The notes beneath the pieces were generated by a model, which worked only from the letters and a program-made list of their open reading frames with translations, was not told the origin of the DNA and made no database searches. From Sinimarinibacterium flocculans (GTDB lineage: Bacteria; Pseudomonadota; Gammaproteobacteria; Nevskiales; Nevskiaceae), in the NCBI RefSeq assembly GCF_003201205.1, contig NZ_QICN01000002.1:1-64000 (forward strand): DNA of 64,000 nt, given 5' to 3'. Positions 4,783 through 47,046 of the stretch are shown here, in pieces (within the stretch, counting starts at the first letter, position 1; the number at the start of each line of letters is the position of its first letter). The position numbers and the translations under genes were made by a program.

Positions 4783-5634
4783 TCACGGCAGCAAATCATC
4801 GAAGCTCGCCGCTTCGCGCTTGCGCTGGGCGGCGATGGCGACGGGGATGTCCGCCGTCGGAAACATCGCGGCGTTCCACGCGGTCATGTAGTCCAGTCCC
4901 TCGCCGATGGCGCGCCGACGCTGGCGCACGAGCGCATGCTTGGTCCCGAGGACGGCCAAGGGGGACAGCCCGCCGATCCGCGCGGCCAGCTCGCCGGCGT
5001 GCGCGTGCAGCGCCGTAACATCGTCCGCCACATGACTCACGAAACCGTGCGTCAGTGCCTCGGCGGCGGCGAACCGCCGTCCCGTCAACGCGAGATCCTG
5101 GACGACCGACGGTGCGATCAGTTGCGGCAGTCGCTGCAGCACGCCCAGGTCGGCGGTGATCGCAACGTTGATCTCATGCACGCTGAAGAACGCATCGGCC
5201 GTGCACAGGCGGATGTCGGCCGCGCAGACGAGATCCAGGCCGGCACCGATGCAGGCGCCTTGCGTGCAGGCGATCACCGGCACCCTCAGCGCCTCCAGCT
5301 GATCCATCGGACGCTGCAGGTACTGGATCTTGCGGCGCAACCATTCCCGGTAGCGCCCCGGCTCAGCGCTTTCGTGTTCGCGCACGGCGGCGAAGAAGTC
5401 CAGATCCATGCCCGCACAGAAGTGCGAACCGACCGCCGTGATGACCAGCGCACGAACGGACGGCGTCGCGTCGATGCGTTCGATCGACTCACTCAGCGCA
5501 CCCCAGAAGCGGTCCGTGAGCGCGTTCATCGCCTCTGCGCGCGCCAGCGAGATGCGGGCAACCGCACCCTCGATCCGCAGCTCGAATCCCGCGTCGGTCG
5601 TCGTACTGACCGCTTCGCGACTCATCGGCCGCAT
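4783..5634 (-). CDS. Crotonase-fold enzyme, probable delta3,5-delta2,4-dienoyl-CoA isomerase
   Basis: A 283-residue enoyl-CoA hydratase/isomerase superfamily protein. The oxyanion-hole segments are HFCAGMD (71-77) and ACIGAGLDLV (127-136). Asp134, Glu154 and Asp162 have the same spacing (20 and 8) as the catalytic Asp176/Glu196/Asp204 of rat dienoyl-CoA isomerase, and ADLGVLQRLP (161-170) is typical of that subgroup. The enzyme moves conjugated double bonds in acyl-CoAs during beta-oxidation of unsaturated chains. The start lies 2 bp after the P450 stop; an in-frame ATG at 5625 is the alternative. A plain enoyl-CoA hydratase remains possible but is less likely. Confidence 0.85.
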   Translation of the reverse strand: MRPMSREAVSTTTDAGFELRIEGAVARISLARAEAMNALTDRFWGALSESIERIDATPSVRALVITAVGSHFCAGMDLDFFAAVREHESAEPGRYREWLRRKIQYLQRPMDQLEALRVPVIACTQGACIGAGLDLVCAADIRLCTADAFFSVHEINVAITADLGVLQRLPQLIAPSVVQDLALTGRRFAAAEALTHGFVSHVADDVTALHAHAGELAARIGGLSPLAVLGTKHALVRQRRRAIGEGLDYMTAWNAAMFPTADIPVAIAAQRKREAASFDDLLP

Positions 5635-5636
5635 GC

Positions 5637-6933: not shown

Positions 6934-8376
6934 TCATTTGCCGCTCATCGTGTAGCGGGAGAAGCGATCGAAGAGCTTTCCGTACGGCGGCCGGATCACG
7001 CGCCCCAGGTCCACGCCTGCCTGTCGATAGATGGCGCGCGCGTGGGAGAACTGTCTGAAGCCGTCGAAGCCGTGGTAGGCGCCCATGCCACTGGCCCCGA
7101 CGCCGCCGAAGGGCAGATCGTCGATGGTGTAGTGCATGATCACGTCGTTGACGGTCACGCCGCCGGATGCCGTGCCCGAGATGACCTGCCGCTGCTCGGC
7201 GGCGTCGCGTCCGAAGTAGTACAGCGCGAGCGCCCGGGGACGCGCGTTGATGTACGCCAGCACCTCGTCGATCGACTCGTAGCCGCGAATCACCAGGATG
7301 GGACCGAAGATCTCTTCGCGGCTGACCGCCAGCTGATCCGGGGGATCGACCATCAGCGTGATCGGAATGCGGTTGCTCCCGTCGCTGCCCGGCTTGGCCG
7401 CGCACAGCACGCGGACGCCGGCCGCCTCGGCTTCGCCGATGTAGCGGCGGATGCGGTCGCCCTGGCGATCGTTGATCACCGAGACGAAGTCCGGATCGTC
7501 GGCACCGGCGGGCAGCGTCCGCGCCAGCTCCCTCTGCATCGACTGGACGAAGCGCTCGAGGTCCGCGCGATGGACGAAGACGTAGTCCGGCGCCAGGCAG
7601 ACCTGGCCGGCGTTGAACACCTTGCCGAAGGCGATGCGACGGACCGCCAGATCCAGGTCGGCCGAACGACCGACGATGACCGGCGACTTGCCGCCGAGTT
7701 CGAGCGTCAGCGGGGTCAGGTTGTCGGCCGCATCGCGCATGATGTGCCGCGCGATCGCTTCGCCTCCGGTGAACACGAGGTGGTCGAGCGGCAGGCGACT
7801 GAAGGCCCGGCCGGTCTCGACGCCGCCGGTGACGACGCCGACCTCGTCCGGCGCGAACGCCGAGCGCAGCATCTCGCTCATCACCTCGGCGGTGGCCGGC
7901 GTGTGCTCCGACGGCTTGACCAGTGCGCGGTTGCCCGCGGCCAGTACGCCGGCCAGCGGCGTCAGCGTCAGGTTCACCGGGATGTTCCAGGGGCTCAGGA
8001 TGCCGACGACGCCGAGCGGCTGGTACTCGACGCGAGCACTGGCGCCGAACAGGGCGAACAGGAACTCGACGCTGCGCCGCTCCGGCTTCATCCAGCGGCG
8101 CACGCCGCGCCGCGTCAGCCGGATGAACTTGCCGGTGGTCGCCACGTCCGCGAAGTAGGACTGCCGCGGCGAGCGGTAACCGAAGTCGCTGCCCAGGGCG
8201 TCGCACAGACGGTCCGCATAGCGATCCAACGCGTCCCACAGGCGGTCGAGGCGGTCCCTGCGCACCTCGAGTGCCGGATAGCGCTCGGCGGCGAAGCCTG
8301 CACTGAGGGTCTCGAACGCTGCACGCAGACCGTCGAGATCATCGGCGGCAACGCCGCCCGCCATTCCATTCTGCAT
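6934..8376 (-). CDS. Aldehyde dehydrogenase, coniferyl-aldehyde dehydrogenase-like
   Basis: About 480 residues of the NAD(P)-dependent aldehyde dehydrogenase superfamily. Visible features are the substrate/cofactor segment SPWNIPVNLTLTPLAGVLAAG, the Rossmann FTGG loop, LELGGKSP with the general-base Glu, and NAGQVCLAPDY with the nucleophilic Cys, a form seen in coniferyl-aldehyde and medium-chain aldehyde dehydrogenases. It probably oxidises an aldehyde derived from the P450 product to a carboxylate before CoA activation. The start is uncertain: the frame is open to 8466, but that would place the operator inside the gene. ATG at 8397 or 8376 is more plausible. It is transcribed divergently from the MarR-like regulator. 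Confidence 0.9.
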   Translation of the reverse strand: MQNGMAGGVAADDLDGLRAAFETLSAGFAAERYPALEVRRDRLDRLWDALDRYADRLCDALGSDFGYRSPRQSYFADVATTGKFIRLTRRGVRRWMKPERRSVEFLFALFGASARVEYQPLGVVGILSPWNIPVNLTLTPLAGVLAAGNRALVKPSEHTPATAEVMSEMLRSAFAPDEVGVVTGGVETGRAFSRLPLDHLVFTGGEAIARHIMRDAADNLTPLTLELGGKSPVIVGRSADLDLAVRRIAFGKVFNAGQVCLAPDYVFVHRADLERFVQSMQRELARTLPAGADDPDFVSVINDRQGDRIRRYIGEAEAAGVRVLCAAKPGSDGSNRIPITLMVDPPDQLAVSREEIFGPILVIRGYESIDEVLAYINARPRALALYYFGRDAAEQRQVISGTASGGVTVNDVIMHYTIDDLPFGGVGASGMGAYHGFDGFRQFSHARAIYRQAGVDLGRVIRPPYGKLFDRFSRYTMSGK

Positions 8377-8439
8377 CGTCACGGCCCCGCTCCTCATCGG
8401 CGCACACTGCGAGCAGACATTATTGTCGTTGTGATATTG

Positions 8440-8452
8440 TGTCAACTCGACA
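8440..8452. promoter_or_regulatory. Operator-like palindrome between aldehyde dehydrogenase and regulator genes
   Basis: TGTC-AACTC-GACA within ATTGTGTCAACTCGACATAAT. A second, everted pair (GACA-TTAT-TGTC) lies at 8416-8427. The position in the divergent intergenic region suits autoregulation of the regulator and control of the dehydrogenase. The site shares its 13-bp layout with those at 3582 and 6906. Confidence 0.68.
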
Positions 8453-8514
8453 TAATTGTACGGCAATGATGGCCGGCCCTAGAATGTTTCAATCGAGAAG
8501 CGGGACGGACCTCC

Positions 8515-9072
8515 TTGAAGAACATCAGCGCCCAGATCAAAGAGATCAAACACGAAGACGCCGCGCGCCACTTTCTGGAGCTCTTCTATCCGATCCACTA
8601 CGCGATCGGCATGCAGGTCGAGGATGCGCTGCGCTGCGGCGGCGAACTCGACCGGCACCAGACCGTGATCATGTGGCTGCTGCGATCCGAGGCGGTCACC
8701 AACGGCGGGTCGAGTATGCGTCGCAAGGACATCGAGCGGCGCCTCATCAGCTGGTACGACATCACCAGCAGCACGGTCTCGAAGGCGCTGCGCGCGCTGG
8801 CAAAGCCGCCGCACAGCTTCATCGTGATCTCGGAAGACCCGAACTCGGGACGCGAGAAGCTCGTGACCGTGACGCCGGCCGGACGGCGCTACTACAAGCG
8901 GATGGTCGACAACGCGACCGCGTTCATCAAGCTCGCGACGGATCGCATGAGCGTGGAGGAGAACTCCATGGGCGTGCACATGTTCAAGACCATTTCCGAC
9001 ACGTTCCAGGAACTCCGGAACGAAGGCCGCATCGAGTCGTTCCAGGGCAACGGCTCGCCCAAGTCCCGCTAG
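8515..9072 (+). CDS. MarR-like winged-helix transcriptional regulator
   Basis: A 185-residue dimeric-type regulator. The middle holds a helix-turn-helix (ISWYDITSSTVSKALRALAK) followed by a beta wing (SFIVISEDPNSGREKLVTVTPAGRRYY), as in MarR proteins; the long flanking helices would dimerise and bind ligand. The only in-frame start near the 5' end is TTG at 8515; the frame is closed upstream by a stop at 8467-8469. It lies opposite the aldehyde dehydrogenase gene with a palindrome between them. I infer that it represses the P450 operon, the dehydrogenase, itself and perhaps the receptor, and is relieved by a pathway acyl-CoA or substrate. Confidence 0.82.
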   Translation: MKNISAQIKEIKHEDAARHFLELFYPIHYAIGMQVEDALRCGGELDRHQTVIMWLLRSEAVTNGGSSMRRKDIERRLISWYDITSSTVSKALRALAKPPHSFIVISEDPNSGREKLVTVTPAGRRYYKRMVDNATAFIKLATDRMSVEENSMGVHMFKTISDTFQELRNEGRIESFQGNGSPKSR

Positions 9073-12465: not shown

Positions 12466-14037
12466 CTATTCCCACTCGATCGTTGCCGGCGGCTTGCCGC
12501 TGACGTCGTAGACCACCCGCGAGACGCCCGGCACCTCGTTGACGATGCGCCGCGAGCAGACGTCGAGCAGCTCGTAAGGCAGGTGCGCCCACTGCGCGGT
12601 CATGAAGTCGATGGTCTGCACGGCGCGCAGCGCGATCACGGGCTCGTAACGGCGACCGTCGCCGGTCACGCCCACCGATCTCACCGGCAGGAACACCGCG
12701 AACGCCTGGCTGGTCTTGTCGTACCAGCCGGCGCGGCGCAGTTCCTCGATGAAGATGTGATCGGCCTGACGCAGCGTGTCGGCGGCCGCCTTGCTGACCT
12801 CGCCGAGGATGCGTACGCCCAGGCCAGGCCCCGGGAACGGATGGCGGTAGACCATCTCGCGCGGCAGGCCCAGTTCGACGCCGATCCTGCGCACCTCGTC
12901 CTTGAACAGTTCGCGCAACGGTTCGACCAGCTTGAGCTTCATGTGCTCGGGCAGGCCGCCGACATTGTGATGGCTCTTGATGACGTGCGCCTTCTTGGTC
13001 TTGCTGCCGGCGGACTCGATGACGTCGGGGTAGATCGTGCCCTGCGCGAGGAAGTCGATACCCTCGAGCTTTCCTGCCTCCTCGTCGAAGACCTCGACGA
13101 ACAGCCGGCCGATGATCTTGCGCTTGGCCTCGGGATCGTCGACCCCCTTGAGCGCGTCGAGGAACCGCGCCTCGGCATCGACGCGGATGACCTTCACGCC
13201 GAGGTGCTCGGCAAAGATCTTCATGACCTGGTCGCCCTCGTGATGGCGCAGCAGGCCGTGATCGACGAACACGCAGGTGAGCTGCTCGCCGATCGCCTTG
13301 TGCAGCAGCGCGGCAACGACCGACGAATCGACGCCGCCCGACAGGCCCAGCAGCGCCTTCGCTTCGCCGACCTGCTCGCGCACCGTCGCGATCGCGTCGT
13401 TGATGATGTTGCCGGGCTTCCACGCGTCGCCGCAGCCGCAGATCTCGTGCACGAAGCGCGAATAGATGCGCGCACCCTGCGTCGTATGCGTCACTTCCGG
13501 GTGGAACTGCAGTGCGTAGTAGCGCCGCGATTCGTCGGCGATGCCGGCGATCGGCACGTCCTTGGTCGAGGCGATCAGCTTGAAGCCGTCCGGCAGGCCC
13601 GACACGTGATCGCCATGCGACATCCACACGTCGAGCAGGCCGTGGCCCTCGTCGTTGACGCGGTCCTCGATGTCGCGCAGCAGCTGCGAGTGCCCGCGTG
13701 CGCGAATCTCCGCGTAACCGAATTCCTTGACCGTGCCCGGCGCCACCGCGCCGCCGAGCTGCACCGCCATCGTCTGCATGCCGTAGCAGATGCCCAGCAC
13801 CGGTACCTGCAGATCCCAGACCGCCTGCGGCGCGCGCGGCGAGTTCGCCTCGGTGACCGACTCCGGCCCGCCCGACAGGATCACCCCCTTGGGCGCGAAG
13901 GCCCGGATGTCGTCGTCGGACATGTCCCAGGGATGCAGCTCGCAGTAGACCCCCAGCTCGCGCACGCGCCGCGCGATCAGCTGCGTGTACTGGCTGCCGA
14001 AATCGAGAATCAGGATCTTGTCGGAGTGGATGTTCAA
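12466..14037 (-). CDS. guaA: GMP synthase (glutamine-hydrolysing)
   Basis: A 523-residue two-domain enzyme that aminates XMP to GMP. The N-terminal class I amidotransferase has the nucleophile Cys in [10 protein letters not shown] and the His/Glu pair in FHPEVTHT. The ATP-pyrophosphatase domain has [17 protein letters not shown], and the C-terminal dimerisation domain ends with the conserved IEWE. The predicted start is a TTG with GAGAG upstream. It follows guaB on the same strand, separated by an intrinsic terminator-like hairpin. Confidence 0.98.
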
Positions 14038-14053
14038 CGCTGTGCTCTCAACG

Positions 14054-14076
14054 AAAAAGCCCCGGCGAACCGGGGC
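14054..14076 (-). terminator. Intrinsic terminator-like hairpin between guaB and guaA
   Basis: On the minus strand a 7-bp stem (GCCCCGG/CCGGGGC) with a 4-nt loop is followed by TTTTT. It lies 12 bp after the guaB stop and 17 bp before the guaA start, so it could attenuate transcription and lower guaA relative to guaB. Confidence 0.75.
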
Positions 14077-14088
14077 ATGCGCAGTGGA

Positions 14089-16999
<2,911 letters not shown>

Positions 17000-29420: not shown

Positions 29421-30344
29421 ATGGGCGAGCAGTTCGAACCGATCGAGTTCCACAGCCATGGCGTCACCGTGCGCGGCGCGCATTTCCGGCCGCAGTCGGA
29501 GGTCCTCGCCGCCGGCAGCGGCGCAGCCCCGTGCGTGGTGATGGCGCACGGACTGGGCGGCGTGCGCGCCGCGCGACTCGACGCCTTCGCCGAACGCTTC
29601 GCGGCCGCCGGCCTGCATGTAATGGTGTTCGACTATCGCTACTTCGGTGACTCCGACGGCGAGCCGCGCCAGCACTTCAACATCCGCGCGCAGCTCGACG
29701 ACTGGGCGGCGGCGATCGCCTGTGCGCGCAAGCTCGACGGTGTCGACGCCAAGCGCATCGCGCTGTGGGGCAGCTCGTTCTCCGGAGGTCACGTCGTCAC
29801 CGCCGCCGTCGAGGACGGCCACGTCCAGGCGGTCAGCAGCCAGGGCCCGATGATGGACGGCTTTGCCGCACTGACCAATGTGGTCCGCTACGCCGGGGCC
29901 TTGCAGGCGCTGCGCGTCACCGCGCATGCCCTGTGGGATACGCTGCTGATTCCGTCGGGACGCCGTCACCTCATTCCGCTGGTCGCGGAGCCGGGCGAAC
30001 TGGGGGTGATGACTTCGGCGGATGCGCAGAGCGGCTACACCGCGATCGTGCCGCCGGACTGGCGCAACGAGATCACCGCCGGCTGGCTGCTGGAACTGCC
30101 GCTGTACCGACCGATCGCCAAGGCGCACCGGCTGCCGTGTCCGACGCTGATCTGCATCTGCACGCAGGACAGCGTCGCACCGGCCTCGGCCGCCGAGAAG
30201 ACCGCCGCCGCGGCCGGCGACCGCGCGGAGATCCGCCGTTACGACATCGGCCACTTCGACATCTACGTTGGCGACGGCTTCGAGCGGGCGGTCTCGGACC
30301 AGACCGAATTCTTCTGCCGCGTGCTGCGCGCGCCGGCCGACTGA
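29421..30344 (+). CDS. Alpha/beta hydrolase
   Basis: A 307-residue cytoplasmic hydrolase. The oxyanion region is MAHGLGG, followed by the nucleophile elbow GSSFSGG, an acid in CTQDSVAP and the catalytic His in DIGHFDIY. This layout is that of the dienelactone/acetyl-xylan esterase-like family. Substrate unknown. The ATG at 29421 has GGGGAG upstream; an in-frame ATG 11 codons earlier is less likely. Divergent from the VWA gene. Confidence 0.9.
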   Translation: MGEQFEPIEFHSHGVTVRGAHFRPQSEVLAAGSGAAPCVVMAHGLGGVRAARLDAFAERFAAAGLHVMVFDYRYFGDSDGEPRQHFNIRAQLDDWAAAIACARKLDGVDAKRIALWGSSFSGGHVVTAAVEDGHVQAVSSQGPMMDGFAALTNVVRYAGALQALRVTAHALWDTLLIPSGRRHLIPLVAEPGELGVMTSADAQSGYTAIVPPDWRNEITAGWLLELPLYRPIAKAHRLPCPTLICICTQDSVAPASAAEKTAAAAGDRAEIRRYDIGHFDIYVGDGFERAVSDQTEFFCRVLRAPAD

Positions 30345-30360
30345 CCGTCGCGAACGCCCG

Positions 30361-30852
30361 ATGATGATGCAGCCGGTTGCGAGCCCGATGCGGTCTGCGG
30401 CACCGGCGCGACTCACCGCGGCATTGATGCTGCTGGCATCGCTGGGCGCCTGCACCGCGCTGCCGGCCGCGCCCCGCGCGATGCCGCCGGCCGACGAGGT
30501 ACGCGTGCGCGAACAGGCATTCGCGCGGACCATGGCGGATCGCGACTTCGAGGCTTTCGCGACCTTCGTCGCCGACGATGCCGTGTTCCTCAACGGCGGC
30601 CACCCGCTGCGTGGCAAGGCGGCCGTGCTGGCGCACTGGCAGCGGTTCTTCGACACCGCCGACGCCCCGTTCTCGTGGACGCCGGATCTGGTCGAGGCGC
30701 TGCCGGACGGCCTTCTTGCACATTCGGAAGGACCGGTGTCGGCGCCGGACGGCCGCGTGATCGCCCGCTTCTACTCGACCTGGCGCCGTGGCACCGACGG
30801 TGTCTGGCGGGTGGTCTTCGACAACGGGCACGACGTCTGCCCGCCACCCTGA
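30361..30852 (+). CDS. Lipoprotein with SnoaL/DUF4440-like domain
   Basis: A 163-residue protein. After a signal peptide with lipobox LGAC comes an NTF2-like domain: REQAFARTMADRDFEAFATF, DDAVFLNGGHPLRGKAAVLA, and terminal strands FYSTWRRGTDGVWRVVFDNG. Such domains bind small ligands or act as isomerases; no catalytic assignment is possible. It starts 16 bp after the hydrolase gene. Confidence 0.82.
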   Translation: MMMQPVASPMRSAAPARLTAALMLLASLGACTALPAAPRAMPPADEVRVREQAFARTMADRDFEAFATFVADDAVFLNGGHPLRGKAAVLAHWQRFFDTADAPFSWTPDLVEALPDGLLAHSEGPVSAPDGRVIARFYSTWRRGTDGVWRVVFDNGHDVCPPP

Positions 30853-30863
30853 ACCCGCGGGGG

Positions 30864-31586
30864 TCAGCCGCGACGCAGTGTCGACCGGTCGACCAGGGTC
30901 TCGGTGGCCCGGCGCGCGAGCGCCGGCAGACTGCTGCCGTCGGACACCGAGCGTTCGACGTTCACGCCGAGCAGCCAGCGCTCGTCGAGCACGACCTTGT
31001 CCGGCGAGCGCAGGATGACCTGGTCGCGCCACACCACCTTTGCCGCGGCATCGACGACGCTGATCTGCAGAATCATCTCCGGGTGACCGCTGGTCTTCGC
31101 GGTGCCGGTGCCCAGCCAGGCGAAGTACCCCGTGCCCTGGTCGGGCACGCTCACGTCGACATCGATCTCCGCCAGCAGCGGCGCCACGCCCTGTCTGGCC
31201 AGCGCCTTGGCGTCGCCCTGCGGGAAACCGAGCAGATACGGCACGCGGCCGCGCAGCGTCTCGACCGGCGCCAGCGTCAGGCGGCTGCGCGTGGACAAGG
31301 CCTGTTCGATCTGCGCGAGCACGGCATCGGCCGTCGTCTTGACCACGGTCCCTTCCGGAGTGCGCAGCGTCTCGATCGCCTCGCGGATGTCGCCGAGCAC
31401 ACGATGCGCTTCGGCGATGTCGGGAATCAGGCCGTCGCCCGGCTGCGGGAATCCGCTTTCCAGACCGTCGATGTCGAGACTGAACCGGGCGATCGTGACC
31501 TCGCCGGCGAGACTGCCGGCCGGGGGCTGGACGGCACAGGCGCAGAGCACCGCGACCGCAAGAAAAGCCGCGATTCGGATCGGCAC
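30864..31586 (-). CDS. Lipoprotein of unknown function
   Basis: A 240-residue protein with signal peptide and lipobox LCAC. No family was recognised. It shows alternating hydrophobic strands (VTIARFSLDIDGLESGF, PLLAEIDVDVSVPDQGTGYF, LQISVVDAAAKVVWRDQVIL), suggesting a beta-rich periplasmic fold. The frame is open further upstream but the signal peptide begins at a GTG (31586), chosen as start. It ends 12 bp from the convergent DUF4440-like gene. Confidence 0.65.
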   Translation of the reverse strand: MPIRIAAFLAVAVLCACAVQPPAGSLAGEVTIARFSLDIDGLESGFPQPGDGLIPDIAEAHRVLGDIREAIETLRTPEGTVVKTTADAVLAQIEQALSTRSRLTLAPVETLRGRVPYLLGFPQGDAKALARQGVAPLLAEIDVDVSVPDQGTGYFAWLGTGTAKTSGHPEMILQISVVDAAAKVVWRDQVILRSPDKVVLDERWLLGVNVERSVSDGSSLPALARRATETLVDRSTLRRG

Positions 31587-31777
31587 GGAAGCTTCGTCGG
31601 CAGACCGGCAGGCGCCGGCGGCGCATCTTGCGCTGACGGCGGATCGGCGTCCACGGCCGCTCGTCGGCTGCCGGTCGCTGCGCGGTGGCCCGCTGCCGCC
31701 GCGGCCTGAGGACAAGTCCCGTAGCACGCGGCCACCACCCTTGCCATCCTTGCCGCGGGGATTTGCGGGGGTGAACC

Positions 31778-33118
31778 GTGCGGATGCGACTGAGCGGCCA
31801 CGTGTGTGTGCTGGCCGCCGTTTCGATGCTGCTGGCGGCCTGCGGCGGCGGTGACTCGTCCGGCGCGGCACCCGCGCAGAACGATGGCGCCGTGCCGTCG
31901 GCAAGCCCGACGCCGGCCGTCGCATCGACGCCCACCCCTTCGGCCACCGCCACGCCGACCCCGACGGCAACGCCCGCTCCCGCCGCCACGCCGACGGCCG
32001 CGCCGACCCCGTCGCCCGCGCCTACCTCGACGCCGGCCGCCACGCCAACGCCAACGCCAACGCCGACACCCCTCCCCACACCCACGCCCGAGCCGACGAA
32101 GCTGAACTGCCCGCCGGTGCCGCCGTCCGGCGCCACGCCCGCCAGCGCCGTCCATCCGGTCTTCGCGTGGCAGAAGAACTGGCAGATCTGCGACGTCAGC
32201 TTCGACTCGCAGATGCATGGCACGCGCCTCTACGGCGTGCTGTTCGCACCGGCCGGCACGGACCTGTCCGGCAGCGTGCTGCCGGCGGTGGTCATCACGC
32301 CGGCCTCCGGGGGCGGGGACGAATCGATGTACCACTGGGCCGCGCGCGATCTCGCCGGCCACGGTTACATCGCGGTCACGGTCGATCCGCAGGGCGTCGG
32401 GCGCTCGCCCGGCAACGCACCGGAACAGGATTTGAACAACTATGCGGACGCGACGGTCAGCGCGCTGAACTTCCTGCTGTCGGAGCGCAATCCGGCGCGC
32501 GCGTATACCGACGTCACGCGCCTCGGCGCCGCCGGACACAGCCTCTCGGCGCGCGCGGTGAGCTGGCAGCAGGGCGAGGACCGCCGCCTGCGCGCGATCG
32601 TCGCCTGGGACAACCTGTCGAGTACGCGGCACGGCGATCCGGGCACGCCGTCGCAGGGCGGGCTCGGCGGTGCGCTGATCAGCGGCGAACTCACGCGACC
32701 CAACGCCCCGGTCACGCCGCTGGTCCCGGCGATGGGCCAGGCCTCGGACGATCCGGGCACGAGCAATCCGCCGCCGGACCGCAAGAAGTACGCGTACGAC
32801 TACTGGCGCCGCGCCGGACTCGCGTCGATGCAGGTCGTGATGCGCGACCTGCGGCACGAAGCCTGGGCGCAATACTCGACCCAGAACAGCGAGGCCGACT
32901 CCCAGCGCCTGCGGCGGATGGCGCACCTGACCCGCGCCTGGTTCGACCTGTGGCTGAAGCGCGACGACACCGCGGTCTCGCGCCTGCGTTCGCGCAGCGT
33001 CGCCGGCACCGACGCCGCGGCGGTCTACAGCGCCAAGTTCCGCTCGGCGCTGTATCTGCCGGCCTACGGCATCGACTGCGCCGACCTGCTCGCGGACGGC
33101 TGCCTGCAAGCGGACTGA
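31778..33118 (+). CDS. Lipoprotein with Pro-Thr linker and alpha/beta-hydrolase domain
   Basis: A 446-residue protein. Lipobox LLAAC (Cys22) is followed by a linker of repeated Thr-Pro/Ala-Pro (about 41-108), then a dienelactone-hydrolase-like domain: GVLFAPAG, VVITPASGGGDES, AGHGYIAVTVDPQGVGRS, and GAAGHSLSAR as nucleophile elbow, with DLRHEAW near the end. The Pro-Thr stalk probably holds the enzyme away from the membrane. Substrate unknown. Confidence 0.85.
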   Translation: MRMRLSGHVCVLAAVSMLLAACGGGDSSGAAPAQNDGAVPSASPTPAVASTPTPSATATPTPTATPAPAATPTAAPTPSPAPTSTPAATPTPTPTPTPLPTPTPEPTKLNCPPVPPSGATPASAVHPVFAWQKNWQICDVSFDSQMHGTRLYGVLFAPAGTDLSGSVLPAVVITPASGGGDESMYHWAARDLAGHGYIAVTVDPQGVGRSPGNAPEQDLNNYADATVSALNFLLSERNPARAYTDVTRLGAAGHSLSARAVSWQQGEDRRLRAIVAWDNLSSTRHGDPGTPSQGGLGGALISGELTRPNAPVTPLVPAMGQASDDPGTSNPPPDRKKYAYDYWRRAGLASMQVVMRDLRHEAWAQYSTQNSEADSQRLRRMAHLTRAWFDLWLKRDDTAVSRLRSRSVAGTDAAAVYSAKFRSALYLPAYGIDCADLLADGCLQAD

Positions 33119-33192
33119 TCGAAGCCGGTGTCGCCATCGCGACACGGTCGCCGGCTAGACTGCAGCTCGTCCGGACGAAGAGGATTCCAACG

Positions 33193-33408
33193 ATGCGATC
33201 GCCCGCCCTCGCCGCGGCCATCGGCGCAACGCTTGCGCTGCTCGCGGCCTGCAGCAACCGCGGCGTCTACGAAGGCACCCAGGCATGGCGCGCACAGGAT
33301 TGCGACGTGCAATCCTCGCGCACCGAACGCGACGACTGCCGCGAACAGGCGCGCCTGACCTACCCCGAATACGAGAAGGAACGCGACGAAGCGCTGGCCG
33401 AGCGCTAG
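33193..33408 (+). CDS. Small lipoprotein
   Basis: A 71-residue protein with lipobox LLAAC (Cys at about residue 19) and a short charged tail with two Cys (QDCDVQ, RDDCREQ) that could form a disulfide. No family recognised. It lies 74 bp after the hydrolase lipoprotein on the same strand. Confidence 0.65.
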   Translation: MRSPALAAAIGATLALLAACSNRGVYEGTQAWRAQDCDVQSSRTERDDCREQARLTYPEYEKERDEALAER

Positions 33409-33479
33409 CGCGGGCTGCGGCGCGCTCGAAGAGAGATCAAGGTCGCCGGCGAATCGACCCGGCTCGGCGCGTCCCCGTG

Positions 33480-36400
33480 TCATTGGGGTGACATGGCGCA
33501 GGCACCGTAGACGTTCAGCTCGCCGAGCACGTTCACAAGACCACCGTAGGACAGTTCCAGTGCATTGAACGGCTTCGACGGCTCGAAGCCGACAAAGAGC
33601 GGATCGGAGCCGCTCAGCAGGCCGGCGATATCAATTGTCAGCACTCCACCTGCGACGTCGGCGAGCTCCTGCGGATCGCCATCCAGATAGGTGGTGATCA
33701 CCAGACTTCTCAGAAGCTCGACATTGAGTGGTGCTCCCGGCCAGGCAACGACGAAGCCGGCCATGCCCGCCCCCGGGTAAACAGCCATCGCGTCGCTGAC
33801 GCGTAGCGACACTGCACCTTGCGCACCGATCGACGGCGCCAATGTCGCGAAGTTGTCCGGATCGGCGTCTGTGGTGTTGGCCGTACCTGTCACGGAACAG
33901 ACGACGCAGGAGGCCGAAACGAATCCGCTTGCAGTGGCGCCCGGCCTGACCAGCTGCACCAGGGGAGCCTGGTCATCGCAGACCGATCTGGCCTCGCACG
34001 CATCGCCGACACCGTTGCCATCGGCGTCGCTCTGGTCCGGATTGGGCACGTCCGGGCAGTTGTCCGTGACGTCGGGGATGCCATCCGCATCGCGGTCGGA
34101 TTCCACGCCTCCGACTGTCGGCACCTCGAAGATGAACAAGCCCTCTTCCGAGAAGTTTGGCGTGTCGCCGACGACGTAGGCCAGATTGTCTCCGACGACA
34201 ACGTCCCGCGCCTGTGCGGGTGTAGCGGGCTGAAACACGATCACCGGTGCGGCCGGATCGCGAACGTCAATCACCTGGAGTCCGCCATCGCTGTCCGCAA
34301 CGAAGGCACGATTGCCATTGACGGTGATGCCCATCGCCTCTCCTAGTGTGTCGATGCTGCCGACGATCGCGAGAGAAGCAGGGTTGCTGACATCCACGAT
34401 CTGGAGGCCTGACAGGCGATCCGCAACGAAGGCCAGGCCGTTCGCAACCTCGACGGCCATGGGCTGGTCCGGCGTGTTGATACTGCCGATCAAGGCCGGT
34501 GCGGCCGGATTGCTGATGTCCACGATCCGCAGGCCGGCATTGACGGCATTGGTCGCTCCATCGGCAACGTAGGCCCGGTCGCCCTGTATGGCGACGGCGC
34601 GGGGCAGGTCGCCCGGAGTCTCGAGCGTGTTGACCAATGCCGGCGCGGAAACGTTGCTGATGTCGACGACATGCAGGCCAGCCGATTCCGATGCCACAAA
34701 CGCAAAGCCTTGGGAGAGCGCGAGCCCGCGCTCACGTCCGGGCAGGTCGATACTGCCCATCAGGGCTGGACCGGCCGGATTGGTCACGTCTGCGACCCAC
34801 AGTCCAGAGCCGTCGCGCGCCATGTAGGCCCGGCCGGCCTCCAGAGCAATGTCTGCCTGCAGGCTGCCGCTACCACCCTCGGCCAGGCTGCCCACCACCC
34901 TCGGCGCTGCAGGATCCGTGACATCGATCACACGCAGCCGGTTGCTTTCCGTGGTGTACGCGTAGTCACCGGCACGCACGATCGACCATGCGGTCGACTC
35001 CGTCTCGACCCGTCCGACCAGTGTCGGGCCCGCCGGGTTAGCCGCGTCGATGACCTGCAGGCCGGCGGTGCCATCGGCGACGTAGATGTAGCGCCCAAGG
35101 GTCGCGACACCCGATGCCTGTCCCGGAGTATCCGTGCTGCCGATGCTGAGCGGCAGCGTGTGATCGGTCACGTCGAATATCTGAACACCCGCTCGATCAT
35201 CGACCACATAGGCCGTATGCCCAGAGACGGTGATGTCCAGCGCCTCGTCCGGCGTGTCAGCGCTGCCGACGATCAGAAAGGGCGCTGCACTCCCGCGCAC
35301 ATCGACGATCTGCAGGCCGGATGTCCCGTCTGCCACATAGGCGTACCCGTCGACCCACGCCACACCCTGAGCATCTCCCGGCGTGTTCGCCGTGCCCAGC
35401 AGTTGCGGCGCAGCTGGATTGCTGATGTCGATGACGTGCAGGCCGGCGTCACCTGCGGCCAGATATGCGCGGCTGCCCGAAACGGCGACCCCCAGGGCAT
35501 CACCGGGTGTGCTCAAGGTTCCCACCTCGACGGGCGTCGTGGGGTCGGATACGTCGACGACCTCCAGATCGTTGCCTCCGGCGATGTACGCGAAATCGCC
35601 GAGCACGGCGATGCCATAGCCTCCCGCGCCGACGAGGCTTCCGATGACCGTGGGCGCAGCCGGATTACCGACGTTGACGATCTGCAGATAACTCTGAGGC
35701 GCAGTGACGATGTAAGCAAGGTCATCGACAAGTGCGAGTGCTTGGGCACCACTGCTCGGCAAGTCCGTCTGACCGATGATCGATGGTCTTGTTGCGCTGG
35801 AAACATCGATGATCTGCAGACGCTGATTCGCTGCCACGTAAGCCAGGGAACCCACGGCCGCAACATCCAGGAACTGATTGCCGCTGGCGCCGCCCGGCCG
35901 TGCGACCGTACCCACGATCGTGGGCCCCTTCACCATGGGCGGTGCCACGAGAACATCGACAGCATCAGCGTCTTCGTAGATGTCAGACTGAAGCGTCGCC
36001 GGTTGCCCCGCCACGACTTCCGGCGCGAGATACAGCGGAGTGCCCCCATCGGCGTCACTACTGTCCGACGATACGAGGGTAGTCCCCAGGGCCGTTATGC
36101 CCAGGGCCTCCAGCTGTCGCGGCTCCATCAGCCGCCCCGAGCCGAAGTCGGTGAGACAAACCTGACGCCCGTCGGCGCAATCGCGAATCAGAACATTGGC
36201 GGGCTTCAGGTCCTTGTGCATGACGCCGACCTTGTGCGCCGCAGCCACCGCCTCTGTGATCTGCAGGAACAAGTCCAGGCGCTCCGCGCGGGATAGTCCG
36301 CTCAGGCGATCGTCGCACTGAGACCAACGCAACAGATCTGTTCCGTGATCGGCGCGCTCGACGTAAAAGGGAGGATCTGAAAAGTTCCACTCGAGGATCG

Positions 36401-36995
36401 GCGCGATGTCGGCGCGCGGACCCAGCTCCTGCAGCAAGTAGCGGGAGAGCGTCACCTCCCGCTTGAGCGCAGCCAGACCATCGCCATCCACGCAAAACTT
36501 GAACACCCGGCTCTGCGCAGATTCTGCCGCACGGGCCAGCCAGACCTCGTTGAGGCCCGTTCCCGATAGCTGCTCTTCGAGCACGAACGGATCGCGGCCC
36601 GGGACTGCCATGCCGGGCTCCAGTGAAAGCGCGCTGACCATGCCGCGCCCGGTGGCGATTCGCTCTACCGGACCATCGAACCGATAGCCGACGCGCGGAA
36701 CCGTCGTGATCCGGCCCGCGTGCTCAGGCCCCAGGGCCACACGCAGTTTCGCCATCGCCTGCTTGAGCACGTCGCGCTCGGTCACCCGATCGCGCCACAC
36801 GGCTCCATGCAGCTCCTCGTGCGTAACGACCTCGCCGACGTGGATCAGCAGCACCTCGAGAAGTTCCAGCGGGCGTCGCTCAGCCTGAACGGCGCGACCG
36901 TCGAGGATCAGCTCGAAACGCGCCTGATCGAACTCGGCAGTTCCGAAACGGAACCTGAACTGCCCCCTCGCCTGATGGTCGTCTGCGCGACTCAT
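33480..36995 (-). CDS. Chimera: OmpR-type winged helix + truncated protein kinase + LVIVD beta-propeller
   Basis: One open frame of 1171 residues. Residues 12-106 are a DNA-binding winged helix (RRPLELLEVLLIHVGEVVTH, RITTVPRVGYRF). Residues 136-340 are a Ser/Thr kinase: Lys167, Glu180, HKDLKPAN (260-267), DFG (283-285), APE (324-326) and SDIY (337-340), where the kinase stops before its C-lobe helices. Residues 350-958 hold 13-14 LVIVD repeats of about 40-45 residues (GLQIVDVSNPAAP type). Residues 968-1000 are a thrombospondin type-3-like calcium repeat, followed by a beta-rich tail. There is no membrane helix or signal peptide between the cytoplasmic and normally secreted halves, so this looks like a deletion-made fusion. 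The start has GGGGGAGGG upstream. Confidence 0.8.
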   Translation of the reverse strand: MSRADDHQARGQFRFRFGTAEFDQARFELILDGRAVQAERRPLELLEVLLIHVGEVVTHEELHGAVWRDRVTERDVLKQAMAKLRVALGPEHAGRITTVPRVGYRFDGPVERIATGRGMVSALSLEPGMAVPGRDPFVLEEQLSGTGLNEVWLARAAESAQSRVFKFCVDGDGLAALKREVTLSRYLLQELGPRADIAPILEWNFSDPPFYVERADHGTDLLRWSQCDDRLSGLSRAERLDLFLQITEAVAAAHKVGVMHKDLKPANVLIRDCADGRQVCLTDFGSGRLMEPRQLEALGITALGTTLVSSDSSDADGGTPLYLAPEVVAGQPATLQSDIYEDADAVDVLVAPPMVKGPTIVGTVARPGGASGNQFLDVAAVGSLAYVAANQRLQIIDVSSATRPSIIGQTDLPSSGAQALALVDDLAYIVTAPQSYLQIVNVGNPAAPTVIGSLVGAGGYGIAVLGDFAYIAGGNDLEVVDVSDPTTPVEVGTLSTPGDALGVAVSGSRAYLAAGDAGLHVIDISNPAAPQLLGTANTPGDAQGVAWVDGYAYVADGTSGLQIVDVRGSAAPFLIVGSADTPDEALDITVSGHTAYVVDDRAGVQIFDVTDHTLPLSIGSTDTPGQASGVATLGRYIYVADGTAGLQVIDAANPAGPTLVGRVETESTAWSIVRAGDYAYTTESNRLRVIDVTDPAAPRVVGSLAEGGSGSLQADIALEAGRAYMARDGSGLWVADVTNPAGPALMGSIDLPGRERGLALSQGFAFVASESAGLHVVDISNVSAPALVNTLETPGDLPRAVAIQGDRAYVADGATNAVNAGLRIVDISNPAAPALIGSINTPDQPMAVEVANGLAFVADRLSGLQIVDVSNPASLAIVGSIDTLGEAMGITVNGNRAFVADSDGGLQVIDVRDPAAPVIVFQPATPAQARDVVVGDNLAYVVGDTPNFSEEGLFIFEVPTVGGVESDRDADGIPDVTDNCPDVPNPDQSDADGNGVGDACEARSVCDDQAPLVQLVRPGATASGFVSASCVVCSVTGTANTTDADPDNFATLAPSIGAQGAVSLRVSDAMAVYPGAGMAGFVVAWPGAPLNVELLRSLVITTYLDGDPQELADVAGGVLTIDIAGLLSGSDPLFVGFEPSKPFNALELSYGGLVNVLGELNVYGACAMSPQ

Positions 36996-37064
36996 CGCAT
37001 ACCCTCCCCCTTGGGCCTGGGAAGGTTATGTACCAGATCGTGCCTATCGGCGCACGCAGAAAGG

Positions 37065-37679
37065 TTAGGGCTTGGAGATCGCCCGCCAGAGCATTTCGAA
37101 CAGCACGTTGGCCTGTCGCGTCAGCGAATCCTTCATGCCGCGCTGCACCCAGGTCTGCGACAGGCGGAACAGCACGCCCATGATGTAGTCGAGCAGTACC
37201 TTCTCGTCGACCTGATCGTTGAGCACGCCCTTGGCGCGCCCTTCCGCGAGCACGCGGATGAAGGTGCCGAACAGTTCGGGGTTGTCGTACTGGGCGCCCT
37301 GCTTGCGCCAGGTGTTGATGTAGACCGAGCTCATCATCAGCTGCACGATCTTCGGGTTCTTCTCGGTGAAGTCGAGGAATACCCAGAAGACCTTACGCAG
37401 GCGTTCCTTGTAGTCCTCGATGCCCTGCAGGTGATCGATCATGCGTTCGGCGAGCTTGCCGAGCCAGGCGTCGAGGCTGGAGAACAGCAGCGCCTCCTTG
37501 CTGCCGTAGTACTTGTAGATGGTCTGCAGCGAGACGTTGGCGCCGCGCGCGATCTCGATCAGGCCGACGCGGTGGAACTCGCGTTCGGAGAACACGTCGA
37601 GCACGGCACGCTCGATACGCACGCGGGTGTCCGGATCGAGCAGGGCGGCATCCGCGGTGGCGGCTTCGCTGTGGCGCAT
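37065..37679 (-). CDS. TetR/AcrR family transcriptional regulator
   Basis: A 204-residue repressor-type protein. The N-terminal helix-turn-helix reads AVLDVFSEREFHRVGLIEIA, then RGANVSLQTIYKYYGSKEAL. The C-terminal helical domain should bind a ligand, possibly acyl-CoA. The ATG follows AAGGAG. It is divergent from the beta-oxidation operon, and two GTAA-N6-TTAC palindromes flank the promoter region, so it probably controls itself and that operon, as FadR/PsrA-type TetR proteins do. Confidence 0.93.
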   Translation of the reverse strand: MRHSEAATADAALLDPDTRVRIERAVLDVFSEREFHRVGLIEIARGANVSLQTIYKYYGSKEALLFSSLDAWLGKLAERMIDHLQGIEDYKERLRKVFWVFLDFTEKNPKIVQLMMSSVYINTWRKQGAQYDNPELFGTFIRVLAEGRAKGVLNDQVDEKVLLDYIMGVLFRLSQTWVQRGMKDSLTRQANVLFEMLWRAISKP

Positions 37680-37698
37680 CAACGCTTCTCCTTGTTGT

Positions 37699-42733: not shown

Positions 42734-44824
42734 ATGGACCCGGATCGCTGGCAACGACTGCAGACCGCGCTCACCGCGATCGTCGATCGACCGGCACAGG
42801 ATCGCGCGTCGCTGATCGAGCGGATCTGCGCCGACGATGCGGACCTGCGCAGCGAACTCGAATCGCTGCTGCACGAATGGGATGCCGATCCGGACTTCCT
42901 CGAACGCGGCTCGGGCCTCGCCCCCGATCACCTTGCCGAAGCTGCCGGGGGCGACCCGCTCATCGGCGAGATCGTCGGCGCGTGGACCATCGTCCGGCGC
43001 ATCGACCGTGGCGGCATGGGCTCGGTCTACCTGGCCGAACGCCGCGGCGACGATTTCCACCGGCACGCGGCGATCAAGGTCATTGCCCGCGGCATGGACT
43101 CGGAGGCGGTGCTGGCACGCTTCGAGACCGAGCGACGGATCCTGGCGGCGCTCGACCATCCCAACATCGCCTCCGTCATCGACGGCGGCCTCACCGCGGA
43201 TGGCCGCCCGTGGTTCGCGATGCCCTACCTCGAGGGCGCGCAACCGCTCGACGCCTACTGCGACGAACGGCGCCTCACGCTCACCGAGCGCATCGGCCTG
43301 CTGCGCCAGGTCTGTGCCGCGGTGCAGTTCGCGCACCAGAACCTCATCGTGCATCGCGATCTCAAACCGGCGAACATCCTGGTCACGCCGCAGGGCGTGC
43401 CGATGCTGCTCGACTTCGGCATCGCCAAGCTGCTGGACCAGCCCTCGGGCGTCACCACCGGCGCCGCCACCCGCCTGTTCACGCCGCAGTACGCCAGCCC
43501 GGAGCAACGCAGCGGCGATGCCATCACCACCGCGAGCGACGTCTATCAGCTCGGCATCCTCTGCTACCGCCTGTTCTGCGGCGAGCGACCCTTCGACGAA
43601 ACGCCGGCAAGCGAAGAGGTGCTACGCAGACCGTCCGAGTGCGTCACCGCCGAAACCGCGCGGCTGCGCCGCGAGACGCCGGACGGCCTGCGCCGCCAGC
43701 TTCGCGGCGATCTCGACACGATCTGCCTGCATGCGCTGAACCTCGAACCGCAGCGCCGGTACCGCTCTGCGGAAGGCCTGGCCGACGACCTCGATCTTCA
43801 TCTGCGCGGACTGCCGGTCTACGCGCGTCCGGACACCTTCGCGTACCGCTCAGGCAAATTTCTCCGGCGCAACCGCTGGAGTGCGTCGTTCGCGGCGGCG
43901 CTGTTCGTCGTCGCGATCGGCTTCGGCGTCTTCGCGTCGGTGACCGCTGCACGCATCGGCGAGCAGGCGGAGGCAGTGCGCGCCGAACGCGATCGCGCGC
44001 AGGCCACAGCGCGCTTTCTCACCGAGCTGTTCACCCAGGCCGATCCGACCCGTGCGGAGCGCGACTACACCGCAGGCGAGATGCTCGAACGCGGGCTGAG
44101 CCTGCTCGAAGCCGACACGGCGCTGCGCGACGCGGAGCGTGCCGCGGTCCTCACCGTCGTCGGCGGCGTCTATCAGGTGCGCGGCGACTACGAGCGTGCG
44201 CGCACCGCCCTGACCGAAGCCGTGGGGTTGAGCCGGCGCGGCGGCGCGGAGGGCGAGCCGTATGCCGGCAGCCTGCTCGAACTCGCAAAGGTGGAATACC
44301 GGCTCGACAACTACGCCGCATCCGAGCAGCTCGCGCGTGAGGCGCTGGGCGTGTTCGACAGCCTCACCGAGGTCGGACCGGACGCGCGCGCCAGCGCGCT
44401 GAACCAGATCGCGATCGCGCTGAGCGAACAGGACCGGCTCGACGAGGCCACCGTCCTGCTGGAGCAGGTCGTCGCGCTGCGACGCCAGTTGCCGGGCGCC
44501 GCCACCGACCAGGATCTCGCCGCCAATCTCAACAACCTCGCACTGAACTACGTCGCGCTGCGCCGCTTCGACCGTGCCGAAACGGCGTTCGATGCCTCAC
44601 TGGCCATCGTCGAACGTCGTTACGGGCCGGTGCATCCGTATGGCGCATTCCTTCGACGCGCCCGGGCCGCGCTGCACGAGGACCGCGGTGACACCGACGC
44701 CATGCGCCGCGACCTGCAGGACGCCCTCGACATCGGGATGAGCACCCTGGGCGAGGACCACCCCTTCGTCCTCGACGTCACTCAACAGCTCGAACAGGTC
44801 GCCATGGAGGGCGACACGCCATGA
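42734..44824 (+). CDS. Ser/Thr protein kinase with membrane helix and TPR-like C-terminus
   Basis: A 696-residue protein. A short N-terminal helical region is followed by a kinase domain with GGMGSVYLAER, AAIKVI, VHRDLKPANILV, LLDFGIAKLL and the APE-like ASPEQRSG. One membrane helix (SASFAAALFVVAIGFGVFAS) is at about 385; beyond it lies a periplasmic domain of tetratricopeptide-like repeats (about 430-690). It overlaps the downstream ECF gene (ATGA). Kinase-ECF pairs of this kind occur in Xanthomonadales/Nevskiales; the kinase may phosphorylate the sigma factor. Targets are unknown. Confidence 0.94.
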   Translation: MDPDRWQRLQTALTAIVDRPAQDRASLIERICADDADLRSELESLLHEWDADPDFLERGSGLAPDHLAEAAGGDPLIGEIVGAWTIVRRIDRGGMGSVYLAERRGDDFHRHAAIKVIARGMDSEAVLARFETERRILAALDHPNIASVIDGGLTADGRPWFAMPYLEGAQPLDAYCDERRLTLTERIGLLRQVCAAVQFAHQNLIVHRDLKPANILVTPQGVPMLLDFGIAKLLDQPSGVTTGAATRLFTPQYASPEQRSGDAITTASDVYQLGILCYRLFCGERPFDETPASEEVLRRPSECVTAETARLRRETPDGLRRQLRGDLDTICLHALNLEPQRRYRSAEGLADDLDLHLRGLPVYARPDTFAYRSGKFLRRNRWSASFAAALFVVAIGFGVFASVTAARIGEQAEAVRAERDRAQATARFLTELFTQADPTRAERDYTAGEMLERGLSLLEADTALRDAERAAVLTVVGGVYQVRGDYERARTALTEAVGLSRRGGAEGEPYAGSLLELAKVEYRLDNYAASEQLAREALGVFDSLTEVGPDARASALNQIAIALSEQDRLDEATVLLEQVVALRRQLPGAATDQDLAANLNNLALNYVALRRFDRAETAFDASLAIVERRYGPVHPYGAFLRRARAALHEDRGDTDAMRRDLQDALDIGMSTLGEDHPFVLDVTQQLEQVAMEGDTP

Positions 44825-45387
44825 ACGGACCGGTCACCCAGCTGATTCTCAGCGCCCGCAACGGCAATCGCCGCGCCCTCGATGCCCTGATGCCGCTGAT
44901 TCACGACGAGTTGCAGGCAACCGCGCACCGCCAGCTGCGCGGCGAGCGTATCGGGCACACGCTCGACACTTCGGCACTGGTCAACGAGACCTACCTGCGC
45001 CTCGCCGAGCAGGACCGGGCGCAGTGGCAGAACCGCTCGCACTTCCTGGCCGTCGCCGCCATCGTGATGCGCCGGGTGCTGGTCAACTACGCCAAGCAGC
45101 ACAACCGCGCGAAGCGCGGCGGCGGCGCCGTGCAGCTCACGCTCGGTCAGGCGCAGCACGTGGCCTCGGAAACGCCCGATGTCGACGTCGAAGCGCTCGA
45201 CGAGGCGCTGACGCGGCTGGCAGCCATCGACAACCGCGCTGCGCGGGTCGTCGAGTGCCGCTACTTCGGTGGCCTCGACATCGACGAAACCGCCGAAGCG
45301 CTCAACATCGCGCCCGCCACCGTCAAGCGCGACTGGCTGCTCGCGAAGACCTGGCTGCGGCGCGAACTCGAAAGCGACGGAGCCTAG
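44821..45387 (+). CDS. ECF-like sigma factor coupled to the Ser/Thr kinase
   Basis: A 188-residue protein of the ECF subgroup often found next to PknB-type kinases. Region 2: HTLDTSALVNETYLRLAEQD, then RSHFLAVAAIVMRRVLVNYA; region 4: RVVECRYFGGLDIDETAEAL, then NIAPATVKRDWLLAKTWLRR. Its ATG lies in the kinase stop (44821-44824), so translation is coupled. No anti-sigma gene is nearby, which fits control by phosphorylation. Confidence 0.92.
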   Translation: MNGPVTQLILSARNGNRRALDALMPLIHDELQATAHRQLRGERIGHTLDTSALVNETYLRLAEQDRAQWQNRSHFLAVAAIVMRRVLVNYAKQHNRAKRGGGAVQLTLGQAQHVASETPDVDVEALDEALTRLAAIDNRAARVVECRYFGGLDIDETAEALNIAPATVKRDWLLAKTWLRRELESDGA

Positions 45388-45718: not shown

Positions 45719-47046
45719 CAGTAGTGTCCGGTTCGTTGAACGCCCAAACGCCAGAACACGCATTGGAGCAATGAGTTAGCGCGATTCATGGGTGTCCACG
45801 ATTTGAAATCGACTTTGCGGTGTTGTGGGCAGACTTCCGGCGTTTTCGTTGCCGGGGACCGCCATGAACACGGGCAAAACGTTGTTCGCGCAGCTGATGG
45901 AGTTCGTGCCGTGGAAGACGTTCACGCGCATCGTGGCGCGCCGCCAGGGCGACCGTGGCGTGCGCACCCTCAACTGCGTGGAGCTGTTCCGGGTGCTGGC
46001 CTTTGCCCAGCTGACCTATCGCGAAAGCCTGCGCGACATCGAAGCCTGCCTGTCGACGCAGGCCGGCAAGCTTTATCACATGGGCTTGCGTCAGGCGCCG
46101 CCGCGCTCGACGCTGGCCGATGCCCTGGCGCAGCGCGACTGGCGGATCTACTTCGAGTTCGCGCAGCGCCTGATCGCCCAGGCGCGCACGCTGTACGCCA
46201 GCGAGCCACTGGAGGTGAATCTCGACGAGACGGTCTACGCGCTGGACGCCACGACGATCGACCTGTGCCTGTCGGTTTTCGACTGGGCGCCGTTCCGCAC
46301 GACCAAGGCCGCGATCAAGCTGCACACGCTGCTCGATCTGCGGGGCCCGATTCTCAGCTTCATCCACATCAGCGACGGCAAGATGCACGACGTCAACGTA
46401 CTCGACATCCTGCCGATCGAAGCGGGCGCGTTCTACGTGATGGATCGCGGTTACCTGGATTTCGCACGCCTGTTCGTCCTCCACCAGGCGCAAGCCTTCT
46501 TCGTCACGCGTGCCAAGGCGGGCTTGGATGCGCGGCGTCTGTATTCGGCGGCCGTGGACCGCAACACCGGCGTGATCTGCGACCAGACCATCGCACTCAA
46601 TGGCTACTACTCCGCGCGCAAATACCCGCAGACACTGCGGCGCATCCGCTTCAAGGACACTGTGTCGGGAAAGACGCTGGTCTTTCTGACCAATCACATG
46701 AGGCTGCCGCCGTTGACCGTCGCCGCGCTCTACAAGAGCCGCTGGCAGGTCGAGCTGTTCTTCAAGTGGATCAAACAGCACCTGCGCATCAAGCAGTTCT
46801 ATGGCACCAGCGAGAACGCGGTGAAGACGCAGATCTGGTCCGCAGTCTGCGTCTACGTGCTCGTGGCCATCGTCAAGAAGGCGCTTCAACTGGATGTCTC
46901 GCTCTACACTTTTCTACAGATCCTGTCGGTCACGGTCTTCGAGAAAACCTCGCTGCAACAAGCTCTGGCGGGCCTCGACTACCGAACCGACATCACCGAC
47001 TTCGCTAAGCAGATGAATCTGTTTGAGATCTAACCGGACACTACTG
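45719..47046. mobile_element. IS4-family insertion sequence
   Basis: A 1328-bp complete element. Its terminal inverted repeats are 15 bp perfect: CAGTAGTGTCCGGTT at 45719-45733 and the complement at 47032-47046. A 9-bp direct duplication, ATGTTCATA, flanks it. It carries one intact transposase gene whose stop lies in the right repeat. Intact ends, gene and target duplication indicate a recent, possibly active insertion. Confidence 0.95.
45864..47033 (+). CDS. IS4-family DDE transposase
   Basis: A 389-residue transposase. Catalytic residues: Asp in ALDATTIDLCL, Asp in YVMDRGYLDF, and Glu in YKSRWQVELFFKWIK, which fits the IS4 signature Y-(2)-R-(3)-E-(6)-K. The N-terminal DUF4372-like domain starts MNTGKTLFAQLMEFVPWKTF. 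The ATG at 45864 has GGGGA upstream; an in-frame ATG 13 codons earlier is less likely. No frameshift is seen. Confidence 0.95.
   Translation: MNTGKTLFAQLMEFVPWKTFTRIVARRQGDRGVRTLNCVELFRVLAFAQLTYRESLRDIEACLSTQAGKLYHMGLRQAPPRSTLADALAQRDWRIYFEFAQRLIAQARTLYASEPLEVNLDETVYALDATTIDLCLSVFDWAPFRTTKAAIKLHTLLDLRGPILSFIHISDGKMHDVNVLDILPIEAGAFYVMDRGYLDFARLFVLHQAQAFFVTRAKAGLDARRLYSAAVDRNTGVICDQTIALNGYYSARKYPQTLRRIRFKDTVSGKTLVFLTNHMRLPPLTVAALYKSRWQVELFFKWIKQHLRIKQFYGTSENAVKTQIWSAVCVYVLVAIVKKALQLDVSLYTFLQILSVTVFEKTSLQQALAGLDYRTDITDFAKQMNLFEI

Follow-up and report, generated by a model that had tools for sequence, protein, structure and literature searches.

The 64,000-nucleotide window analysed here, from Sinimarinibacterium flocculans, contains a single open frame in which the first part of a winged helix-kinase regulator is followed by a propeller of LVIVD repeats and thrombospondin type 3 (TSP3) repeats (Table 1). 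As judged from the DNA and its relatives, this gene is a real and precisely placed chimera, so far found in one lineage. We consider it probable that the gene is confined to this lineage, as far as the searches reach, and that it arose from a winged helix-kinase regulator gene and an LVIVD/TSP3 gene.

Table 1. Features of the chimeric gene and the segment around it (window coordinates)
Feature	Position	Strand	Details
Chimeric gene	33480..36995	-	single open frame, 1171 codons, ATG start
OmpR-type winged-helix DNA-binding domain	36678..36896	-	residues 34-106, Trans_reg_C 44.6 bits, cut-off 26.2
Kinase domain, N-lobe and C-lobe to first residues of helix F	35976..36593	-	residues ~135-340, Pkinase 54.6 bits
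Fusion point, codon 340 (Tyr) / codon 341 (Glu)	35975..35976	-	homologue comparison
14 LVIVD-type repeats	34116..35927	-	residues ~357-960; 12 Pfam LVIVD stretches
Thrombospondin type 3 repeats	33990..34103	-	residues ~965-1002; TSP_3 31.5 bits
C-terminal domain	33483..33983	-	residues ~1005-1171; also in lipoprotein-like proteins of genus/family
Lineage-specific segment, approximate	30400..37060	.	comparison with sister species

Domain architecture of the fusion protein

The Pfam hits on the fusion protein were Trans_reg_C (residues 34-106), Pkinase (232-340), LVIVD (344.8 bits over 12 stretches) and TSP_3 (965-988). By motif count the protein has 14 LVIVD-type strands (residues 393-959), which may perhaps fold as two seven-bladed propellers if they divide as 2 x 7, and the TSP3 region matches COMP and thrombospondin chains. 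An earlier note on this DNA, made by reading the letters, had listed 13-14 LVIVD repeats in frame and a calcium-type repeat, and both were recovered as the 14 motifs and the TSP_3 hit. What we take to be the kinase motifs, VFKF (164), KREV (178), HKDLKPAN (260), DFG (283), APE (324) and SDIY (337-340), are all present from the Lys to APE.

The winged helix sits at the N-terminus, where no signal peptide or lipobox was visible in the hydropathy profile. Between the kinase and propeller halves neither a membrane helix nor a visible signal peptide was found with a 19-residue hydropathy scan, as the earlier note had stated; the peak was 1.2 for stretches starting at residues 320-380, versus 1.5-2.8 in homologues, and 1.48 across the whole protein. 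Pfam found no TPR in the fusion protein, and AlphaFold run on its single sequence returned a model too poor to use (mean pLDDT 33.9), which carries no weight for or against a working protein.

The fusion point lies within the kinase domain

Kinase homology stops after Tyr340 (last base 35,976), and together with the Pfam hits this agrees with the description of a winged helix followed by a kinase that ends at SDIY. Winged helix-kinase relatives in the order align to query residues 340-344 (E<=1e-60), with two further rows that reach 351 and 363, the latter of which (G029:C20:54801, read as L194) is an ordinary homologue. We read 44 distinct homologues past the break, a set that omits G021:C5:30162 (to 351) and four weaker kinase rows of the genus reaching 346-361, and all continue after SDxY or its like with helix F, as ALG in 42 and SLG in two; the ALG continuation was also present in 5/5 homologues from the class and phylum samples. 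In homologues about 65 residues of C-lobe come after helix F (estimated by eye), all 44 have a hydrophobic peak (1.5-2.8) 91-103 residues past the break point, and TPRs (TPR_12) were found in both intact homologues scanned whole with Pfam. The fusion protein has neither the part from helix F onward (SDxY-[AS]LG), which is kept in 44/44 distinct homologues, nor the membrane helix expected ~92 residues after SDxY. Instead it reads Glu-Asp-Ala-Asp after the break, and LVIVD blade 1 starts ~15 residues on. Comparison with homologues past SDIY, which had been proposed beforehand, thus bore out the view that helix F and all that follows it are missing from the kinase. The Pkinase profile match ends at position 181 of 263 in the fusion protein and likewise short of the profile end, at positions 190 and 195, in two intact homologues, so that the end of the Pfam match alone is no proof of truncation, which is provided by the homologue comparison.

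A hidden frameshift, with the kinase resuming in another frame, was ruled out by three-frame reading and codon shuffles: the three frames past the join displayed no C-lobe when compared with one homologue, and for 0/44 homologues did the similarity of the DNA after Y340 to kinase genes rise above the best of 30 codon shuffles. One alternative frame stops 17 codons after starting at Asp338. By eye, an 11-base run past the join recurs in homologue L053, two bases out of step, but carried no weight in the shuffle test. Helix F is the anchor of the protein kinase core, and hence no kinase activity would be expected of the fusion protein.

Relatives of the kinase half

The winged helix and the kinase up to SDxY are shared, at 40-54% identity, with winged helix-kinase-membrane helix-TPR proteins of the same order, such as L048 from G007 (912 aa) and L047 from G004 (933 aa). 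These proteins go on with helix F, C-lobe, membrane helix and TPRs (two scanned), all of which the fusion protein lacks. They are frequent, with a match in 42/85 genomes of the order (its own genome included), often several per genome, at E<=1e-60, and a literature search found no paper on them. An example is G000:C3:438985-441279 (L002, L049), with homologues in L018-L075. An N-terminal OmpR-type winged helix is also found in CadC/ToxR-type one-component regulators, but the CadC model scores only 29 bits on the fusion protein, far under its cut-off of 400. The single membrane helix that follows the winged helix in those regulators is absent here, and consequently there is no periplasmic sensor.

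For the tree and the analysis of conserved columns we used 43 homologues plus the fusion, with duplicates and homologues starting after query residue 30 excluded. The kinase half falls inside a clade of the order's own genes (support 99/100), with a gene of the same genus as nearest neighbour, the latter at weak support (88/85), and its end branch is long (0.93 vs a median of 0.22). It has kept 55 of the 57 columns that are >=95% conserved, ranking 13 of 44 rows, and the two changes (F211Y and L259M) are both conservative; the two relatives of most similar branch length have lost six columns each, and three with slightly shorter branches 2-3. This retention indicates that the first half evolved under constraint for a large part of its history.

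Relatives of the propeller half and the C-terminal domain

LVIVD repeats have been described in cell-surface proteins (PMC2447325). Exported LVIVD-repeat proteins with TSP3 (choice-of-anchor B type, TIGR04312) have the 14 LVIVD-type motifs and TSP_3 in common with the fusion protein, which scores 87.5 bits with TIGR04312, under the cut-off of 100. It differs from them in having no visible signal peptide or lipobox, with a winged helix-kinase in front instead. Relatives of the propeller half were present in 34/368 other genomes of the class sample (E<=1e-25). None of 29 propeller loci, each retrieved with flanks of up to 1500 bases, has a winged helix-kinase match; a hydrophobic leader or lipobox was recognised by eye in 20, the others being 5'-cut or unclear. 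The 57 other genomes of the family gave a single propeller-half match at E<=1e-30, which spans TSP3 and the C-terminal domain.

The C-terminal domain (after ~residue 1005) recurs in proteins of the genus and family, and a lipobox was seen by eye in four of these (L013, L035, L036 and L046/L051). This domain of ~150 residues is also present in L033, L042 (G007:C12), L051 (G012:C81), L013 (own), L035 and L036, where its partners are TSP3 arrays or Ig-like repeats, and one protein has it twice. A separate gene of the same genome (G000:C3, L050:9658-13383) encodes 1241 aa, with a leader seen by eye and LVIVD-like repeats that follow many CxxC(H) motifs; its product resembles a multihaem cytochrome fused to a propeller.

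Searches for a second fusion

Queried with the whole protein, the 10 other genomes of the genus gave no second fusion, and nor did 84 others of the order (E<=1e-60, up to 8 candidates scored per genome), 368 others of the class sample (1e-85, up to 2 candidates per genome) or 397 of the phylum sample (1e-50, up to 2 candidates per genome). The class and phylum sets are overlapping samples, and a fusion of greater divergence could have escaped these strict cut-offs and the small number of candidates scored in each genome. In a scan of named-genome contigs, in which the best 80 of 183 relatives (mostly TSP3 matches) were examined, 15 of these 80 loci matched both halves, yet none is a fusion like that at 33,480-36,995, as their two matches differ in strand or reading frame, come in the wrong order or belong to separate genes. 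One of the candidates, L112 (query 234-990), was rejected since its kinase and TSP3 matches belong to separate genes. Nothing in viral contigs matched the junction, and none of the 113/72,556 plasmid records with a partial match covers 80% of the query. Literature searches on LVIVD repeats, alone and together with protein kinases, and on winged helix-kinase proteins turned up nothing on the fused architecture.

The search for the same architecture thus gave no second case in the genus, the order or the class and phylum samples, and the suggestion of a new class of cytoplasmic sensor found no support beyond the one gene. With no second example and a kinase that is cut through its core, a one-off hybrid gene is more likely than a new sensor class.

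The join in the assembly

The fusion gene lies on a contig of 594,828 bases. It could be an artefact in which unrelated stretches were misjoined at 35,976, as the assembly is a draft of 39 contigs, the fusion is known from one genome only, and the break is placed unnaturally within a kinase. Against this, the 301 bases around the join have no other match in the assembly (E<=0.001) and there is thus no long repeat to explain a misjoin; a query with the C-lobe, membrane helix and TPRs of a close homologue retrieved the intact paralogue on contig 3 but no orphan half; no orphan 5' part turned up for the propeller half either; and the frame is retained, with codon usage alike on either side. For a misassembly, two stretches would need to be joined in frame in the absence of a long repeat, with both leftover halves lost; the earlier note had raised this possibility, and we regard it as unlikely, with very little probability left to it.

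Genomic context and composition

The fusion start codon lies 69 bases after a TetR gene (37,065-37,682, same strand), which is kept in 11/11 genomes of the genus. In 3/10 sister species a homologue of 29,436-30,401 directly follows TetR, and in the other 7/10 the next conserved homologues are farther away. Neither fusion half adjoins TetR in any of the ten (18-kb stretches), the sole first-half match in these stretches being an ordinary kinase-TPR gene in G004. By this layout ~6.6 kb (30,400-37,060) is specific to this genome at that place. Consensus scans of 33,100-37,200 gave 0 promoter-like and 0 terminator-like sites, with 0.4 and 1.6 expected from shuffles.

Several other genes of the window were noted in passing. 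Inside the lineage-specific segment, a lipoprotein-like hydrolase with a Pro/Thr-rich linker (31778-33118) is weakly PETase-like (27.3 bits, cut-off 28) and had no match in the ten other genus genomes (E<=1e-20). A kinase-TPR gene at 42734-45387 has an ECF-like sigma factor gene (named by eye) directly after it on the same strand, and sister genome G004 has a comparable pair close to TetR (L176). By eye, a DDE transposase-like ORF was recognised at 45825-47033, ~9 kb from the fusion gene.

The propeller part had been described as less GC-rich than its neighbours. Its GC3 is indeed low (0.734), but this is not special to the propeller, as the kinase half (0.762) is about as atypical. Conserved neighbouring segments have a mean GC3 of 0.881 (sd 0.041, minimum 0.789, n=16), two other genes of the lineage-specific segment 0.870 and 0.899, and the corresponding part of the intact kinase paralogue 0.951. 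Sixteen homology-confirmed segments served as baseline, since there were spurious-looking ORFs among the 65 called mechanically and one candidate reference ORF (13,606-15,555) looks antisense. The GC3 of the fusion is the sixth lowest, with 5/65 of the mechanically called ORFs lower, several of them apparently spurious, and values range from 0.625 to 0.951 across homologues in other genomes and the own paralogue, so that a low GC3 is no proof of import. A GC step at the join, considered as a mark of the fusion, was not found in the codon and GC profile across 35,976, the two halves being alike. The lack of a GC3 step points to a history common to both parts, be it before their arrival or since, and argues against a very recent join of native genes. 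From the even codon usage it seems that the union of the two parts, or at least their coexistence, dates from the arrival of the segment or earlier.

The earlier note had also proposed a deletion joining two genes near 35,976. The join itself is supported by the homologue comparison, but a local deletion between native neighbours is less well supported, given the shared codon usage, the lineage-specific segment and the layout of the parental genes elsewhere. Among 19 stretches holding a winged helix-kinase gene, some of them cut by a contig end, none has a propeller-half match (E<=1e-4) beside it, which counts against a deletion between neighbouring native genes; a twentieth stretch, L051, has propeller-half matches only, in TSP3 and the C-terminal domain. 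In a named Lysobacterales MAG (L076), a kinase-TPR gene (4954-6654, minus strand), in which no winged-helix match was found, and a propeller/TSP3 gene (8001-8861, plus strand) are ~1.3 kb apart, which indicates that kinase-TPR and propeller genes can be neighbours.

Interpretation

We propose that a gene for a winged helix-kinase-membrane helix-TPR regulator contributed its 5' part, up to the Tyr340 codon, and that this part was fused in frame to the body of a gene for an LVIVD/TSP3 protein whose relatives are exported. The joining would strip the propeller part of its export signal, and the product would stay in the cytoplasm. A kinase without helix F would be unable to fold a working catalytic core, and at most the winged helix may still bind DNA and the propeller bind something. 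Our best reading is a chimera of a crippled kinase and a propeller that would be stranded in the cytoplasm; the likeliest status of the gene is that of a hybrid that would lack its parents' functions, and most likely it has no selected function, or a residual DNA-binding one only. Decay was not seen, with 0 stops or frameshifts across 1171 codons, and the break spares the propeller, falling ~15 residues ahead of blade 1 and leaving 14 motifs. Together with the conserved columns these features would fit a recent fusion, but a selected one too. The intact frame, the conserved columns, the spared propeller, the long branch, the caveats on GC3 and the gene pair of L076 all have to be counted against a private chimera that may be non-functional.

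The same features could instead belong to a functional, soluble one-component regulator, with a DNA-binding winged helix, the truncated kinase acting as a linker or a pseudokinase, and a cytoplasmic propeller of 14 blades that senses a ligand or partner. Each half does look intact (2/57 conserved columns changed, 14 motifs, no stops), a purine-rich AGGGGGAGGG stands directly before the start codon by eye, and the gene follows TetR closely on the same strand. Yet no second example turned up in the genomes searched, the missing helix F and membrane helix are present in 44/44 homologues, and relatives of the propeller half and the C-terminal domain are by eye mostly exported or lipid-anchored, and we regard such a regulator as rather unlikely. 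A related option is a young working hybrid that may stem from one-step joining of a membrane-bound regulator to a secreted protein, and would combine a soluble winged helix, a pseudokinase without helix F and a cytoplasmic 14-bladed LVIVD propeller sensing an intracellular ligand; to this we give a rather low probability.

Import of the fusion as an established architecture, from a donor group outside the collections searched, would account for the atypical codon usage along the whole gene and for the absence of the segment at the same place in sister species. The kinase half, on the other hand, groups, at weak support, with a gene of the same genus inside the clade of the order's own genes, and the C-terminal domain is shared with other proteins of the genus and family, so that both parts look home-grown, and import appears distinctly improbable.

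Conclusions

The gene offers a clean natural example of a new gene born by fusion: a cytoplasmic regulator and an exported protein meet at a sharp in-frame join, and relatives of both parents are available for comparison. Should it be functional, it would show that cells can recruit propellers of the extracellular type as cytoplasmic sensors; if it is not, it is a warning that annotation from a list of domains would wrongly call the product a kinase or a secreted protein.
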